Shown piece by piece: positions 32,271 through 38,526 of a stretch of 64,000 bases of DNA. Below the pieces are notes generated by a model. The model worked only from the letters and a program-made list of their open reading frames with translations, made no database searches and was not told the origin of the DNA. A program made the position numbers and the translations under genes. Origin of the DNA: a virus; the IMG/VR virus record IMGVR_UViG_3300028393_000057, positions 1-64,000 of that record, one strand, 5' to 3'. The stretch's first letter is position 1, and the number at the start of each line of letters is the position of its first letter.

Positions 32271-32483
32271 ATGGCAACATTAGTATGGAGTAGCAAAGAC
32301 TACTCAAGACATCACATTCAAGTGTCAGAAACAAATGACAATGTAAATAAGCTAATGAATAGCATATTTACTTATTCCAGGGAAAAGAGTGAGAGGATAT
32401 TTGTTAGTAATAACAGATATTATTATGCTCCAAGCCCAGAATACAAAGCATTCGTAGTTAGATTTAAAGGAATTAAAAAATAA
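32271..32483 (+). CDS. Small basic protein, unknown
   Basis: 70 residues, starting MATLVWSSKDYSRHHIQVSE; beta-alpha-beta likely (ERIFVSNNRYYYAPSPEYKAFVVRF). Unknown. Confidence 0.5.
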   Translation: MATLVWSSKDYSRHHIQVSETNDNVNKLMNSIFTYSREKSERIFVSNNRYYYAPSPEYKAFVVRFKGIKK

Positions 32484-32489
32484 TAAAAA

Positions 32490-32864
32490 GTGAAACACAA
32501 ATTTATAAAAACAGAAGATATATGGTATATTGACTTACCAGAATTTATTGAACAAGGATTAGGTACCAAAGCTAATTTAATGATGGTTGCAGGAGCAGAT
32601 GTAATGTTAGACATTCTATCTAATGATGGAAATGAAATCACATTAGAATTTTCTAGTGAACCAATTGAAGGTAGCCAACATACATTAGTCAAACAAAGAT
32701 TTGGTTTAGATAAAGAACTATTAAGTAAAATAGGACATGCACCTGTAGATTATGGTGCTTATTATAACTGGAAAGAAAATAACAGTCAATCTGTTTGGTT
32801 ATGTCCTGTTACAGAATATGTATTTAATGGAGCATATCCAGAAAAAATATACGTAAAAGTTTAA
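32490..32864 (+). CDS. DUF6717-like conserved protein
   Basis: 124 residues, GTG start. Features DIWYIDLPEFIEQG, ANLMMVAGADVMLDIL and VWLCPVTEYVFNGAYPEKIY, which agree with my memory of DUF6717, a family of unknown function in phages and Bacteroidota. Six bases after the preceding stop. Confidence 0.55.
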   Translation: MKHKFIKTEDIWYIDLPEFIEQGLGTKANLMMVAGADVMLDILSNDGNEITLEFSSEPIEGSQHTLVKQRFGLDKELLSKIGHAPVDYGAYYNWKENNSQSVWLCPVTEYVFNGAYPEKIYVKV

Positions 32865-32865
32865 T

Positions 32866-33042
32866 ATGGAACTAATTTTCAATTGGTGCGTAGATGTATT
32901 AATATTCCTAGCCAATGTGCTAGGAATAACATACAAAGAGATTAATGTATGGATATTCTGTATAATAGAACCTATTGTATTTATATACATGTTAACATTA
33001 ATTATTAAACAAAACAGATATATTAAAAGAATTATAAACTAA
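32866..33042 (+). CDS. Membrane mini-protein
   Basis: 58 residues. Hydrophobic helices at about 3-22 and 28-48 with a basic C-terminal end (KQNRYIKRIIN), so inside-positive. It starts 1 base after the preceding stop. Last gene before the structured RNA. Confidence 0.5.
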   Translation: MELIFNWCVDVLIFLANVLGITYKEINVWIFCIIEPIVFIYMLTLIIKQNRYIKRIIN

Positions 33043-33271
33043 TCACAACCTGTCGTGATCCAAATCTTAATTAGATCATTTGCCCTTGCACCCTTGTCTC
33101 AGGGTTGGGATAAACATAGATTACTTGACTTTCTTCTTCTAATTAAGATGTATGAGGTCTTTTTAAAGATAAAGTAATCAGGGAGGTTTCTCTGTACCAG
33201 AACAGAAGCTTATTGATCATTGTTTATAGGTCTTTAGTTGGTTCTACCCTAACTATTGATCTATAAATGAT
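33042..33271 (+). ncRNA. Putative pseudoknotted structured RNA
   Basis: About 230 gene-free bases with dense pairing: atcac 33042-33046 with gtgat 33055-33059; atcttaattaga 33064-33075 with tctaattaagat 33138-33149 (12 perfect pairs); ccct 33091-33094 with aggg 33101-33104; gattactt 33119-33126 with aagtaatc 33172-33179 (8 perfect pairs, crossing the previous helix, hence a pseudoknot); tctgt 33191-33195 with acaga 33202-33206; tttataggtc 33223-33232 with gatctataaa 33258-33267, enclosing tagtt 33235-33239 with aacta 33251-33255. No intron, tRNA or riboswitch family recognised. Confidence 0.65.
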
Positions 33272-33291
33272 GATTTATTGATTGATAAATT

Positions 33292-33320
33292 ATGGCTGAT
33301 ATGGCGGATATATGGCGGAT
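33292..33320 (+). repeat. Three copies of atggc(t/g)gat
   Basis: Copies at 33292-33300, 33301-33309 and 33312-33320, directly after the structured RNA. They also form the start of a 19-codon frame that is probably not a gene. Confidence 0.65.
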
Positions 33321-33364
33321 TAAAATCATTTTGTTGACATCACCAATATGATGAAATATAGTTG

Positions 33365-33372
33365 TATATTTG
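33365..33372 (+). promoter_or_regulatory. Candidate -7 element (TATATTTG)
   Basis: Matches TAnnTTTG, but the nearest TTG (33334-33336) is 28 bases upstream, longer than the usual 19-21. It would transcribe the mini-ORF at 33401 and the polymerase region beyond. Confidence 0.35.
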
Positions 33373-33400
33373 TCAAATTCAGTAGTATGACTACTGATAT

Positions 33401-33499
33401 ATGAGAAAAAGTAAACCAATAGCTTTACCAATAGGTATGTTTAGTAAAGATATAGCTTTACATATTATGAGCTATTTAGTTTACATAATAAATGATTAA
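33401..33499 (+). CDS. Possible mini-ORF
   Basis: 32 residues, MRKSKPIALPIGMFSKDIAL then a hydrophobic end (HIMSYLVYIIND). It lies downstream of the candidate -7 element and before the repeat array. Could be chance. Confidence 0.25.
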   Translation: MRKSKPIALPIGMFSKDIALHIMSYLVYIIND

Positions 33500-33502
33500 T
33501 CC

Positions 33503-33594
33503 ACCAAAAAGTGCCTTATATGACACATTATGATGTATTTATGCGACATTTAAGACACATTATCATACCAAAAAGTGCATTATACGACACTTTA
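33503..33594 (+). repeat. Two 28-base direct repeats, 64-base period
   Basis: accaaaaagtgc(c/a)ttata(t/c)gacac(a/t)tta, copies at 33503-33530 and 33567-33594, with a related tatgcgacatttaag between them. Iteron-like. Confidence 0.8.
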
Positions 33595-33604
33595 AGCAAC
33601 ATAA

Positions 33605-33751
33605 AAATTAGAAATATAAATCTAAAAACATAAAAATTAGGCGCAAAAGAATATAAATAGGAGCAAATTAGAAATATATATCTAAAAGTATACGCAATAG
33701 GGTATAAATAGACAGAATATTAAGAATTTATATGCTAAAGGGTATAAACCG
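33605..33751 (+). repeat. Interleaved AT-rich repeat array
   Basis: Set A: aaattagaaatata(a/t)atctaaaa at 33605-33627 and 33665-33687 (exactly 60 bases apart), itself an inverted repeat (ttaga..tctaa). Set B: (g/a)cgcaa(a/t)ag(a/g)(a/g)tataaatag at 33641-33660 and 33692-33711, with a diverged copy at 33732-33751. No gene. Candidate origin iterons or regulator-binding array. Confidence 0.75.
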
Positions 33752-33785
33752 TTCCAATTTGTCACACCTTCAAATAAATTAAATT

Positions 33786-34019
33786 ATGGATCATCCAGTA
33801 ACAATATTAAGAAATAGATTAATTAAAATAGGTATAACCATTGAAATGGTTAGTAACTATCCATGGATATACTTAGATAAGGTTAATGGTAATGTAGTGA
33901 AGGAAAAATACTTTGCTAATCATGGCTTTACAATAGGATTTAATCCTGCAAAAGTGGGAGATGTATTTAGTTACACTGATCTTAAAGAAATATTTAAAAT
34001 TATTAGAAAATATAAATAA
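33786..34019 (+). CDS. Small protein downstream of repeat array
   Basis: 77 residues, starting MDHPVTILRNRLIKIGITIE; ends with a basic helix (TDLKEIFKIIRKYK). First gene after the array. Unknown. Confidence 0.5.
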   Translation: MDHPVTILRNRLIKIGITIEMVSNYPWIYLDKVNGNVVKEKYFANHGFTIGFNPAKVGDVFSYTDLKEIFKIIRKYK

Positions 34020-34021
34020 TT

Positions 34022-34225
34022 ATGGCGGACATAACAAAATGCTTCGGAGAAGAAGATGAAATCATCTGCCCTTATAGAGACCGTTGTTACAGATTTACAG
34101 CAAAAGCTGATGAATATCAAAGTTACTTTCAAGGGATGCCACTTAAAAATGATAAATGCGACCACTATTGGGGAGATGGTGGAGAAAATATCTGGAATCA
34201 ATCAACAGAAATAGAAACATTATGA
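34022..34225 (+). CDS. Small Cys-containing protein
   Basis: 67 residues. Cys spacing in KCFGEEDEIICPYRDRCYRF and a later KCDHYW may form a small metal site. Overlaps the next gene at ATGA. Unknown. Confidence 0.5.
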   Translation: MADITKCFGEEDEIICPYRDRCYRFTAKADEYQSYFQGMPLKNDKCDHYWGDGGENIWNQSTEIETL

Positions 34226-34413
34226 CATCAAAAGAAAAAGCAGAACAATTATGGGGTAAATATTTCCAATTAAATTATGATTGGGATGGAGGGACAAAGG
34301 ACCAATGGGCAAAAGAAGGTGCATTAATAGCAGTAGATGAGATATTGTATAATTGTTATGAAGTTATGAAACCATTTTGGGAAGAAGTTAAAAAAGAAAT
34401 AGAATTATTATGA
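34222..34413 (+). CDS. Small acidic helical protein
   Basis: 63 residues from MTSKEKAEQLWGKYFQLNYD (ATG 34222, overlapping the previous stop by 4 bases; a start at 34156 is less likely because it lies deep in the upstream gene). Helical, ends EEVKKEIELL. Overlaps the next gene by 4 bases. Confidence 0.55.
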   Translation: MTSKEKAEQLWGKYFQLNYDWDGGTKDQWAKEGALIAVDEILYNCYEVMKPFWEEVKKEIELL

Positions 34414-34628
34414 TAGTACAAACAATACATGAAATCCTTAATCCTTTTGATGTAGAAACACCATTGGGATATGGTGTGGCAATATTTATGATCGCAGGTT
34501 CTATTCATTCCAATCCACAATTTATCATCAGGCTGTATAATACAGGTGAAGTTAGAACAGTGGATCAAAATGATATTAAAATTTACGGTAATCCTACAAC
34601 TGGAGAACCATTAACACCTAAAAAATAA
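34410..34628 (+). CDS. Small beta-rich protein, unknown
   Basis: 72 residues, starting MIVQTIHEILNPFDVETPLG; contains GYGVAIFMIAGSIHSNPQFI and ends with a basic TPKK. ATGA coupling to the previous gene. Unknown. Confidence 0.5.
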   Translation: MIVQTIHEILNPFDVETPLGYGVAIFMIAGSIHSNPQFIIRLYNTGEVRTVDQNDIKIYGNPTTGEPLTPKK

Positions 34629-34630
34629 TC

Positions 34631-34831
34631 ATGACTATATTTGAAGTTTCAGTAAAACTAGAATTAATAGACAAATCTGATAATCATCACAGTTTTGCAC
34701 GTACATTCACTTCTAATGAAGGTTTTTACGAGTGTTGGGAACAAATAGATATATTTAGAAACAGCAAGTTTGCTGAACAACCAACAATAACACATGTGCT
34801 TAACACCGCATCATTAGATGTAATATATTAA
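34631..34831 (+). CDS. Small protein, unknown
   Basis: 66 residues, starting MTIFEVSVKLELIDKSDNHH; alpha/beta. Two bases after the previous stop. Unknown. Confidence 0.5.
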   Translation: MTIFEVSVKLELIDKSDNHHSFARTFTSNEGFYECWEQIDIFRNSKFAEQPTITHVLNTASLDVIY

Positions 34832-34837
34832 AAAATT

Positions 34838-35059
34838 ATGAAAACACCAATGGAATTAGCTCTATCTAGAATAGAATTAATGAAAGATATTAAACCAGAT
34901 AGTATACATTGGCAAATGTTTAAGGACAATTACATATACATGGAAAAGCTAATGATGGTGGATAAACAAATAGAACTGTATAATCAATTAAACACATTAG
35001 GCTTGTTATTACCAAATTCAATTGGTTTTGAACTAGCAGAATTAAAAAACAAATTATGA
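34838..35059 (+). CDS. Small helical protein, unknown
   Basis: 73 residues, all helical (MELALSRIELMKDIKPDSIH), overlapping the next gene by 4 bases. Unknown; position in front of the polymerase suggests an early or replication accessory. Confidence 0.5.
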   Translation: MKTPMELALSRIELMKDIKPDSIHWQMFKDNYIYMEKLMMVDKQIELYNQLNTLGLLLPNSIGFELAELKNKL

Positions 35060-35250
35060 GAAATGAAGAATTATACGAATATGTATTCCATTTTAATCCA
35101 TATAATGAATTATGGAGTGCAATACCTAGAGACATCTACCAACAATATTTTAACAATAATGAGATGGATGGGGTATTAAAATCAAAAGAATTAACAACAT
35201 TGTTTTCTTTAATAGGAAAAGGTGCTACCTTTGTAAACTCAATTAGATAA
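35056..35250 (+). CDS. Small protein with YxFHFNPYNxLW motif
   Basis: 64 residues; EYVFHFNPYNELWSAIPRD followed by a helix. I recall similar aromatic motifs in small genes of Bacteroidota phages but know no function. ATGA coupling upstream. Confidence 0.5.
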   Translation: MRNEELYEYVFHFNPYNELWSAIPRDIYQQYFNNNEMDGVLKSKELTTLFSLIGKGATFVNSIR

Positions 35251-35257
35251 TACAGTT

Positions 35258-35515
35258 ATGGAAAATCGAGTTGGTTTAAGAAGCAATACATCAAACTATC
35301 AGAAATTATTGAGAGTTATAGCATTTGGAAAACATAACTTAGATATATCCAATAGTAAAACCCTTAAATATTTATATATAGGTAAAACTTATTATTTATT
35401 ACGTTCAGGAGAAATAATGATTAAACGTGAATGGCATGAAAAAGGAAATCCAGAATATATAGTGTGTGGATTACATGAAGAATGTGTTGCTACTAAAAAA
35501 AGACTTAAAAAATAA
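35258..35515 (+). CDS. Small basic protein, unknown
   Basis: 85 residues; basic C-terminus (ECVATKKRLKK); central KTLKYLYIGKTYYLLRSGEI is probably beta. It ends 3 bases before the polymerase. Unknown. Confidence 0.5.
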   Translation: MENRVGLRSNTSNYQKLLRVIAFGKHNLDISNSKTLKYLYIGKTYYLLRSGEIMIKREWHEKGNPEYIVCGLHEECVATKKRLKK

Positions 35516-35518
35516 TAT

Positions 35519-37471
35519 ATGAAAGTTTATATCTATGACATAGAAACTATGCAGGAGTTATTCCTAATAGGCTTATTTGATCCAGAGACAAAAGAATATC
35601 AAGAGTTTGAAATAAGTAGATGGAATAATTCACTTGACAGGTTCATTAAGTTCATAGAGAATAAAGATGAATATTATTGGGTGGGCTATAACAATCTACG
35701 TTTTGACAGTCAGGTGATTGAATATGTTATTAAGAATTATGATGATTGGCATCATCTATCTGGTCTTGAAATATGTGCTAAAATTGCACAGAAAGCAGCA
35801 GATGTGATTCATGATGCTAATTATGATGTATTTCCTGAATACAGGGAACATGAACTCTCATTGAAACAATTAGATTTATTTAAAATAAACCATTTCGATA
35901 ATAAGAATCGTATGGTGAGCTTAAAAAGATTGGAGTTTGAGATGGATCTTGAGAACATTGAAGAGATGCCCATTCATCATCAAAAAATTGATATGTCGAA
36001 AAAAGACATAATTCTCACCATGAACTATTGTAGAAATGATGTAATGGCTACTTATGAGTTCTATAAGATAACTACAGGTGATACAGAGCATCCTTTGTAT
36101 AAAGGAAATAATCAGATACAGCTCAGAATGGATATAAAGGAAGAATTTGGTATTAACTGTCTTAATTATTCTGACAGTAAAATTGGTGATGAGATGATTA
36201 AGAAGTATTATTGCCAAGAGAAGGGTATAGAATATGCACAGCTACCAAAGAAAGGTTATTTTAGAACAGAAATCAATGTAAAGAATTGTATTGCCAGTTA
36301 TGTAGAATTTAAAACACCACAGCTAAAAGAGTTCCTCAAGAAGATTAAAGCCATTAAACTAAAGCTGTTAGATGATTTTAAAGAGAGTGTAGTGTTTTAT
36401 GATAACACCTATTCATTCATGAAGGGTGGTTTGCATACAGAGAATAGTCCAAAGATATTTGAAGCTGATGATGAATATGAAATCATTGATTGGGATGTAT
36501 CTTCTTATTATCCTGCGATCATCATTAACAATGAGAAATATCCACAACATCTAGGTAAAGATTTTCTTAGAGGATATAAGCAAATGTTTGATAAGAGACT
36601 AGAACTAAAGCCTTTAGCTAAGACAGATAAGAAGATTAAAGGGATTGTTGGTGCTCTTAAGCTCGCTGTTAACTCTGTTTATGGTAAAAGTTCTGACATG
36701 CAGAATTGGATATATGATAGACAACTAACTATGTTTACCACCATAACTGGTGAACTATCACTAATGATGTTAATTGAAGCATATGAACTTAGAGGTATAC
36801 ATGTTATATCTGCTAATACAGATGGTGTAACACTGAGAGTTAAGAAATGTGATCTTGAACTAATGAAAGCTATTAACAATTGGTGGATGGACCTCACTAG
36901 TTATGAGTTAGAACGCACTGATTATAAGAAGATTATATTTTCAACAGTTAATGATTACCTAGCAATTAAAACAGATGGAGAAGTTAAAAAGAAAGGAGAT
37001 TTCCTCACAGATTTCGAATTACATAAGAACAAAAGTGCTAGAATTGTACCATTGGCACTTGAACAATATTATATTCACGATATACCTGTTGACATTACTA
37101 TTAGCAGTCATAATAATATCTTTGACTTCTGCCTAAGACAAAAAGCAAGTAGGGATTTTCATTATGAAGGGCACACTAAGAATGGTAAAACAGTGTATAA
37201 TAAGCTTATTCGTTATTATGTCTCTAATACAGGAGAGAAACTAATGAAGGTAAAGAATGATAGCTGTACAACAAATGCTGCTCCTATTAGTCAAGTTGAA
37301 GCTGGTGAATGGGTAATGACCGTATGTAATCATCTTACAAAGGATCATCCTCTATCTAATATCAATTATGAGTATTATATAGAGAAAGCAAATAGAATCA
37401 TACATAAGATACAGCTAGAAGGTAAGAAAAGAAAAGTCAATATTGACAAAAACCAATTAACATTATTCTAA
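35519..37471 (+). CDS. Family B DNA polymerase
   Basis: 650 residues. Proofreading exonuclease: DIE (7-9), GYNNLRFD (56-63), YCRND (170-174). Polymerase: FMKGG (300-304, YxGG-like), motif A DWDVSSYYP (324-332, catalytic Asp326), motif B KLAVNSVYG (381-389), motif C ANTDG (432-436), and KKKGD as the KKxY-like element. In motif C the usual first Asp of DTD is Asn433, leaving Asp435. About 650 residues is close to small replicative or protein-primed B-family enzymes, but no terminal-protein insertion (TPR1/TPR2) is recognised. This is the replicative polymerase. Confidence 0.93.
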   Translation: MKVYIYDIETMQELFLIGLFDPETKEYQEFEISRWNNSLDRFIKFIENKDEYYWVGYNNLRFDSQVIEYVIKNYDDWHHLSGLEICAKIAQKAADVIHDANYDVFPEYREHELSLKQLDLFKINHFDNKNRMVSLKRLEFEMDLENIEEMPIHHQKIDMSKKDIILTMNYCRNDVMATYEFYKITTGDTEHPLYKGNNQIQLRMDIKEEFGINCLNYSDSKIGDEMIKKYYCQEKGIEYAQLPKKGYFRTEINVKNCIASYVEFKTPQLKEFLKKIKAIKLKLLDDFKESVVFYDNTYSFMKGGLHTENSPKIFEADDEYEIIDWDVSSYYPAIIINNEKYPQHLGKDFLRGYKQMFDKRLELKPLAKTDKKIKGIVGALKLAVNSVYGKSSDMQNWIYDRQLTMFTTITGELSLMMLIEAYELRGIHVISANTDGVTLRVKKCDLELMKAINNWWMDLTSYELERTDYKKIIFSTVNDYLAIKTDGEVKKKGDFLTDFELHKNKSARIVPLALEQYYIHDIPVDITISSHNNIFDFCLRQKASRDFHYEGHTKNGKTVYNKLIRYYVSNTGEKLMKVKNDSCTTNAAPISQVEAGEWVMTVCNHLTKDHPLSNINYEYYIEKANRIIHKIQLEGKKRKVNIDKNQLTLF

Positions 37472-37707
37472 TGGCAAACGTAAAAAAATCTGTTAACAAA
37501 TTAACAGTAAAAAAATATATAGTGATATATGATGATAATAAGGGATTTGTTGAACAATGGGCAATGGGTAGTTCAAAGGAGATTATTGATCATTTTAATG
37601 AAGATCCTGAATTATATATAAATGCTGAAGAGTTTCTTACAATATATGAACTTGGTTCAGCTGTTCAATTTAAGTTTGTAACACCACAAATAGTATTAGA
37701 TTTATAA
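37471..37707 (+). CDS. Small protein after polymerase, unknown
   Basis: 78 residues, starting MANVKKSVNKLTVKKYIVIY; one-base overlap with the polymerase stop. Alpha/beta, acidic middle. Could be a polymerase accessory; unknown. Confidence 0.5.
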   Translation: MANVKKSVNKLTVKKYIVIYDDNKGFVEQWAMGSSKEIIDHFNEDPELYINAEEFLTIYELGSAVQFKFVTPQIVLDL

Positions 37708-37718
37708 AAATATATACA

Positions 37719-37976
37719 ATGGCTATTAATCGCACAAATATTGCAACACATTTAATTGAATATCAATTAACTATGGTGGGTAAAACTATGGCTGATGCTC
37801 AAAAAGATGATATGTGGTTCTTTAATTGGACATTTACACAGGAACAGCATGAAGAGTTCAAAGCTTATGCTCTTCCTTTGATTAAGAAAGTGTTTAAATG
37901 CAATAGAGCTAAAGCACAAGATACATTTGCTTGGTTTGATTTGCAATTTGGCTTACGTATAAAAGAAAAAGAATGA
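37719..37976 (+). CDS. Small helical protein, unknown
   Basis: 85 residues, starting MAINRTNIATHLIEYQLTMV; helical, ending EKE; overlaps the next gene by 4 bases. Unknown. Confidence 0.5.
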   Translation: MAINRTNIATHLIEYQLTMVGKTMADAQKDDMWFFNWTFTQEQHEEFKAYALPLIKKVFKCNRAKAQDTFAWFDLQFGLRIKEKE

Positions 37977-38314
37977 GAAGAATAAAGAACTTACTACGTT
38001 GGATCCCAATCATCTGGAAAGACAGAGATTGGGATTTTTATTTCACATATGAAATCTTGAAGAAAAAACTTGAATTCCAAGCAGAATATACAAGAAAGTA
38101 TGGATATCATGAAGCTTCTTTACGTGATGCTGATAGAATGCAAACTTGTGTAAATCTTATTACTAAGTTACAGAATGAAGAATATATAATTATTCCAGTG
38201 ACAAATAGAGAATACACTGAGCAAGATTTTAAGAATGATCAAATTAGACATGATAAAGCAAGGAAATTATTGTTCAAAATATTAGAACAAGACATTGAAA
38301 GATGGTGGGATTAA
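37973..38314 (+). CDS. Basic helical protein, unknown
   Basis: 113 residues. Trp-rich basic start (MRRIKNLLRWIPIIWKDRDW) then charged helices. I recall a similar N-terminus in small genes of other Bacteroidota phages. Unknown. Confidence 0.5.
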   Translation: MRRIKNLLRWIPIIWKDRDWDFYFTYEILKKKLEFQAEYTRKYGYHEASLRDADRMQTCVNLITKLQNEEYIIIPVTNREYTEQDFKNDQIRHDKARKLLFKILEQDIERWWD

Positions 38315-38337
38315 TTTAACAAATAAAACTAAAAATT

Positions 38338-38526
38338 ATGAAAAATTTTGAAGATTGGGAAAGAGAATATCTTACAGATTTCATATATTTGCAAGAACAA
38401 GGTTATGAATTAGATCGAAAAATTGATGAGCTGATGAATGAACGTACTCCTGCAAATATAGTAGTTATAGACAAAGATAAAATATTAGAACATGAACCTA
38501 TCAAATCTGAAATTCTCCCATTTTAG
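38338..38526 (+). CDS. Small acidic protein, unknown
   Basis: 62 residues, starting MKNFEDWEREYLTDFIYLQE; two helices and an acidic end. Its 3' end overlaps the next gene by 35 bases. Unknown. Confidence 0.5.
   Translation: MKNFEDWEREYLTDFIYLQEQGYELDRKIDELMNERTPANIVVIDKDKILEHEPIKSEILPF

Follow-up and report, generated by a model that had tools for sequence, protein, structure and literature searches.

A region of 230 nt (33042-33271), which lies between two blocks of genes in a virus genome, raises the question of whether it encodes a structured RNA and, if so, what such an RNA does for the phage. The genome is a 73.4-kb virus record whose proteins include a DNA polymerase, a primase, a ribonucleotide reductase, a UvsX-like recombinase, RIIA/RIIB-like proteins and a major head protein; the stretch analysed, here termed the window, covers 64,000 nt. 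A sequence-only reading had described the region as one pseudoknotted RNA, placed between the stop of a membrane mini-gene and a repeat array. The stems of that description are all present in the window: the 12-pair helix (P1), the helix that crosses it (P4, 8/8 pairs), a small hairpin (P5) and a long hairpin with an inner stem (P6, 33219-33232/33258-33271). As a single element the region did not hold, since it is composed of the RNA proper (about 33062-33207) and a separate hairpin (33216-33271). The features are listed in Table 1.

Table 1. Positions of the RNA, its helices and its neighbouring elements in the window.
Feature	Position	Strand	Evidence or remark
58-aa mini-gene upstream of the RNA	32866..33042	+	accompanies the RNA in just two loci, the window and L002
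Noncoding RNA, common part of the family (P1 to P5)	33062..33207	+	about 30 relatives; covariation; covariance models
P1, 5' arm	33064..33075	+	partner 33138-33149; crosses P4; 12/12 pairs; cognate-pairing permutation 0/20,000
P2 (33083-33085/33107-33109)	33083..33109	+	encloses P3; cells paired 98.8% (P2) and 99.3% (P3); double changes in both
P3	33090-33094/33101-33105	+	nested in P2; loop 33095-33100, UGUCUC
Unpaired conserved joining stretch	33110..33118	+	consensus nnAGACAUA, window AUAAACAUA; directly 5' of the invariant G of P4; alignments A1, A4
P4, 5' arm (crossing helix)	33119..33126	+	partner 33172-33179; 97.3% cells paired; 6/8 pairs double-changed
P4b, 5' arm	33129..33132	+	partner 33165-33168; inner continuation of P4; RNAalifold; permutation 0/20,000
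P1, 3' arm	33138..33149	+	inside the P4/P4b loop; pairing and permutation test
P4b, 3' arm	33165..33168	+	RNAalifold; permutation test
P4, 3' arm	33172..33179	+	helix search; covariation
Conserved G-rich strand CAGGGAGG	33179..33186	+	first C closes P4; alignments A1, A4
P5 hairpin (33191-33195/33202-33206)	33191..33206	+	conserved loop ACCAGA, 33196-33201
P6, long hairpin separate from the RNA family	33216..33271	+	z -7.67; kept in L007, which lacks the RNA

The folding of the single sequence was ruled out as proof of an RNA. The whole region has a z-score of -2.33 against shuffled sequences, mostly because of the last hairpin, whereas the pseudoknotted part (33062-33210) has a z-score of +0.64 and gains nothing over its shuffles with a folder that cannot model the knot. 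A further small hairpin (33042-33059) was found in the window and its closest relatives alone and is not general.

The separation of P6 from the RNA comes from the relative L007, which shares 97.6% DNA identity with the window over 33743-38500 and 92-98% on both flanks. This relative lacks 32483-33210, corresponding to a DUF6717 gene, the mini-gene and the RNA, and retains 33211-33428, where P6 and the first repeats lie. The presence of 33211-33271 in L007 without the RNA means that the region consists of two elements. P6 is long and AT-rich, with an inner stem that varies, and shows compensating changes in relatives, independently of the RNA; it is also found at about 2526-2580 of L007 and 1565-1620 of L008, and no clear T-run was found for it. 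The motif CAAATTCAGTAGT is repeated 3' of the RNA/P6 site in the window (about 33375-33390), L007 (2684), L008 (1710) and L013 (1767), and is present twice in L002 (2430, 2453); it is possibly an operator or part of a promoter. A sigma-70-like site (33334-33362, + strand, TTGACA-17-TATAGT, 11/12) lies 3' of P6 and ahead of the next gene block; the region does not hold more such sites than expected by chance. Two 28-nt copies of ACCAAAAAGTGCxTTATAxGACACxTTA (33503-33530 and 33567-33594), 64 nt apart, occupy the repeat-rich gap ahead of the gene at 33786.

About 30 distinct relatives of the RNA were found in IMG/VR contigs. Exact-pattern scans gave L002 and L003, followed by L008 and L056 among DNA-polymerase relatives, and scans with the conserved motifs gave many further members. 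The very divergent L228 and L232 were fetched via the neighbouring helicase and not via the RNA. Pattern matches without the core, such as L091, L096, L138 and L140-L142, were excluded from the family. An exact 19-mer of P1 common to L001 and L004 was attributed to chance, the rest of the RNA being absent.

Covariation among these relatives strongly supports the pseudoknot and indicates that the region encodes a real RNA of about 150 nt. With 26 members aligned by MAFFT without regard to structure, 93.7% of the cells in P2, P3, P4 and P5 are paired (76.9% in shuffled alignments), 13 pairs have double changes and the covariation score is 0.461 (0.151 shuffled), which drops below 0.09 when the partners are slid by 1-3 columns. 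A model-fitted alignment of 28 sequences, including two divergent ones, gives 94.6% paired cells (76.2% shuffled), 16 double-changed pairs and a score of 0.505 (0.162 shuffled) that was reached by 0 of 500 shuffles and collapses on the same slide of 1-3 columns. The changes on both sides of P4 in these 28 sequences are illustrated by the arm pairs GATTACTT/AAGTAATC, GGTTTCCT/AGGAAATC, GCTGTCTT/AAGACAGC, GTATAGCT/AGCTATAC and GCTGACCT/AGGTCAGC. Covariation of the crossing helix was the point on which the earlier reading had agreed to be judged, and the pseudoknotted RNA that it proposed is therefore not refuted. RNAalifold recovers P2, P3, P4 and P5 unaided from the model-fitted alignment and adds P4b.

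The arms of P1 are unrelated yet complementary sequences in different lineages, which prevents their alignment in columns, and P1 was therefore tested by cognate pairing. The mean cognate score is 21.1 against 14.4 for non-cognate arms across 15 lineages, and 20.5 against 14.7 across 21 members; P4b gives 11.6 against 8.6. In each of these tests 0 of 20,000 permutations scored as high, and related rows raise the non-cognate scores, so that the bias runs against the result. The P1 test is ungapped and only clear for the group, as L056, L086 and L102 have low single scores because of internal loops in P1. Two members, L131 and L139, have a short P4 loop and no P1, and P1 is thus an optional part of the fold.

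The conserved molecule is the + strand RNA. One P3 pair is G-U in 12/28 sequences, and others occur in P2 and P4; such a pair is a mismatch in DNA and would be A-C on the other strand. The invariant or nearly invariant positions are the CC and GG of P2, most of nnAGACAUAG, the CAG after P4 and the P5 loop RCSAGA. An alternative pairing that competes with P2 (CCUUG/CAGGG) is so nearly invariant that covariation cannot judge it.

The RNA family is apparently uncatalogued, as judged from Rfam 15, phage and species genome searches and the open-licence literature. Neither the window nor six other RNA-bearing loci match a family of Rfam 15 at the curated gathering score, and the matches at E values up to 10 are unrelated, mutually inconsistent and below threshold. 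No Rfam self-splicing group I/II intron or small self-cleaving ribozyme is matched even at E 10, and these candidates were rejected. Four query stretches gave no credible copy of the RNA in 50,697 phage records, in a search that needs sequence identity, and no cultured phage that carries the RNA was found in the phage-record searches; one match in Gordonia phages (E 0.04) lies inside annotated genes, in sequence unlike the RNA. In 84,980 species genomes, two pattern scans that depend on a conserved motif gave no match that passes the covariance models, the pattern matches in eight genomes all failing them. The newness concerns the RNA family, which matches no known family, and not a mechanism.

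The RNA is an optional single-copy insert between genes in several phage lineages. Empty sites are found at three junctions where the gene order otherwise matches. In relatives of L056 and L121 without the RNA (L010, L014, L016, L024, L034, L039) the next gene comes immediately after the same terminator. Within the helicase clade, 13 relatives that lack the RNA have a TAATG in which the stop of the gene ahead overlaps the start of the helicase, and the RNA-bearing members have the RNA between these two codons. The RNA was found in 15/80 helicase loci and 3/80 DNA-polymerase loci, some of whose contigs may stop short of the site. One copy is present in each of 16 records, and in the loci examined its orientation is that of the flanking genes. 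The neighbours vary (helicase, dNMP kinase, a PDDEXK (DUF3799) protein, a DnaA_C-domain protein, integrase and others), while the core of the RNA remains constant. The junction 5' of the helicase start in L173-L244 is either empty (TAATG) or occupied by small ORFs or by the RNA, and the small ORFs in other relatives point to an insertion hotspot.

The setting in the window is not general to the family. The 58-aa mini-gene has no match in Pfam or PHROG and is no general partner of the RNA: the link to its stop, proposed at first, gives way in other members to the stop of an unrelated gene just upstream. In other phages the RNA is flanked by quite different genes, and this repeat array is absent there. 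Two other candidate partners were rejected because both are found in RNA-less phages too, namely a small Cys-rich protein (c15) and, as a partner of the G-run, a terminator with the loop TTCCCCYA. This intrinsic terminator is found in L010 (about 2776), L056 (about 6326), L121 (reverse strand, about 2863) and other DNA-polymerase relatives, and in many phages, whether they carry the RNA or not, it stands ahead of the same gene. Conservation of the loop is unusual in a plain terminator. In L126, a 100-aa protein with a Bac_DnaA_C (DnaA DNA-binding) domain is encoded 538 nt 3' of the start of P2, and L133 and L135 have a protein that resembles it without a Pfam match.

The RNA is probably co-transcribed with the upstream gene, given that the stop of the upstream frame is 0-44 nt before P2 in most members and that no Bacteroidota-type promoter, a type that may not be that of the host, was found ahead of the RNA. 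After P5, a run of at least four T is present in 19/27 listed members, compared to 37/255 for a comparable T-run just upstream of other gene starts in these loci; it is missing in the window, L002, L008, L090 and L132-L135. In the helicase clade the start codon comes only about 12-16 nt after P5, which suggests that termination is partial or regulated, or that the T-run is no terminator there.

We tentatively give most weight to a noncoding RNA gene of about 150 nt, an accessory of the phage, that would be released from the mRNA and act in trans. The chief alternative, which we regard as unlikely though a serious contender, is a cis-acting control element between cistrons, akin to an attenuator or riboswitch, in which the knot would set the stop at P5 and its T-run or the use of the next start codon. 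The constant sense placement directly between a stop and a start is expected equally of such an element and of a trans-acting gene, and counts to that extent against the latter, as do the T-run missing from several members and the lack of a promoter found ahead of the RNA. The short distance from P5 and its T-run to the helicase start in one clade, the lack of a Bacteroidota-type promoter of its own and the disruption of the TAATG stop-start overlap by the insertion also speak for cis control. Riboswitches and attenuators with an intrinsic terminator are similar in having a structured domain with a hairpin and T-run before a gene, as in that one clade, and differ from the RNA in that it has no consistent downstream gene, no T-run in several members and no Rfam match. 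The genes downstream are unrelated across lineages, the closest relatives live without the RNA, and 579 nt, with P6 and the promoter-like site, separate the RNA from the following gene in the window. The P5 loop is conserved, unlike a typical expression platform. The gain and loss of the RNA, its changing neighbours and its conserved unpaired core are the reasons for favouring the trans-acting gene over cis control.

An element at the 3' end of the upstream mRNA, which would stabilise or process it by blocking exonucleases or providing a processing site, is improbable. It would fit the position just after, or overlapping, the end of the upstream gene in most members and the order of a knotted fold followed by a terminal hairpin. 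Yet stability alone needs no invariant unpaired core, and in L056 and L121 the RNA follows a strong terminator and not the end of a gene.

Little more can be said for a processive antiterminator of the put type, which would keep RNA polymerase modified to the end of the operon, and we consider it improbable as well. The HK022 putRNA is about 70 nt long, has two stem-loops and follows early promoters closely (PMC9378689); the RNA resembles it as a structured element with a conserved core in co-directional early genes. The sense orientation within long co-directional gene blocks and the strong conservation of the core across lineages would agree with such a role. The RNA differs from putRNA in fold and also in its place within the gene block, with about 17-22 kb of co-directional genes upstream of it in G001, G004 and G009 and only 1.3 kb downstream in G007. 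Because the RNA is often late in its gene block, a put-like role becomes less likely.

There is a similarly slim chance that the RNA is a selfish mobile RNA or DNA element, ribozyme-like or mobilised by a homing endonuclease, with no function for the phage. The precise optional inserts at several junctions would be expected of it, and in six members (L002, L008, L093, L095, L113, L120) a NUMOD1 endonuclease-like gene is at most two genes away, a proximity that is suggestive only. Most members have no such endonuclease adjacent, the genomes carry one copy each, the copy in the window has neither inverted nor direct terminal repeats, and the Rfam introns are unmatched. A replication primer RNA or origin-linked element, the first proposal for this locus, is very improbable: the RNA is near replication genes in several lineages, but close relatives with the same replication genes lack it (in L007 P6 and the first repeats remain, and few DNA-polymerase loci carry it), and it is placed differently in different phages. 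The single copy, the co-orientation and the varying neighbours argue against an origin or primer and favour an accessory co-transcribed noncoding RNA gene.

In the RNA, the P2/P3 hairpin is followed by the P4/P4b stem-loop, whose loop pairs back upstream (P1) and forms the pseudoknot; the conserved G-rich strand and the P5 hairpin with its conserved loop complete the fold. As a trans-acting gene, the RNA would be transcribed inside the surrounding mRNA and freed by processing together with, in most members, a terminator-like stop after P5. The unpaired core (nnAGACAUAG, CAGRGRSG and the RCSAGA loop) may be where a host or phage factor makes contact, and the freely varying stems may merely hold its shape. 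Phage tRNA genes are also optional RNA genes that are co-transcribed in sense. The RNA resembles them in its optionality and sense placement and might likewise work in trans, yet it is neither tRNA nor tmRNA, none being detected in the window by ARAGORN.

The RNA may counter a host defence or take over a host function. Such a counter-defence or host-takeover role is our best guess, drawn from the pattern of gain and loss and from two precedents (PMC3475682, PMC10651486). The pseudo-ToxI of phage PhiTE, a phage-encoded RNA that blocks a host suicide system, is likewise a phage-borne noncoding pseudoknot RNA (PMC3475682). It consists of tandem 36-nt repeats resembling a host antitoxin, whereas here a single copy of about 150 nt is present; no direct-repeat family, and hence no ToxI-like tandem of pseudoknot repeats, was found within 33042-33271. 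The RNA anti-CRISPRs (Racrs) are solitary units resembling CRISPR repeats that serve phages as counter-defence RNAs (PMC10651486), and are comparable to this RNA as small accessory phage RNA genes. This RNA differs from them in being several times longer, multi-helical and knotted. The pattern scans and covariance models found no host member of this RNA family in the species genomes, so there is no support for the idea that a host antitoxin or guide RNA was simply copied. A bolder proposal, which we hold to be possible but unlikely, is a new class of RNA whose knotted core would bind and disable a host defence or core machine and which would pass as an optional cassette across phage lineages.

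It is rare for a phage noncoding RNA to combine a covariation-supported fold with a clear history of gain and loss. This family comes with an alignment, two covariance models and close pairs of phages with and without the RNA. Such pairs make its function testable through the abilities that only the carriers of the RNA have.
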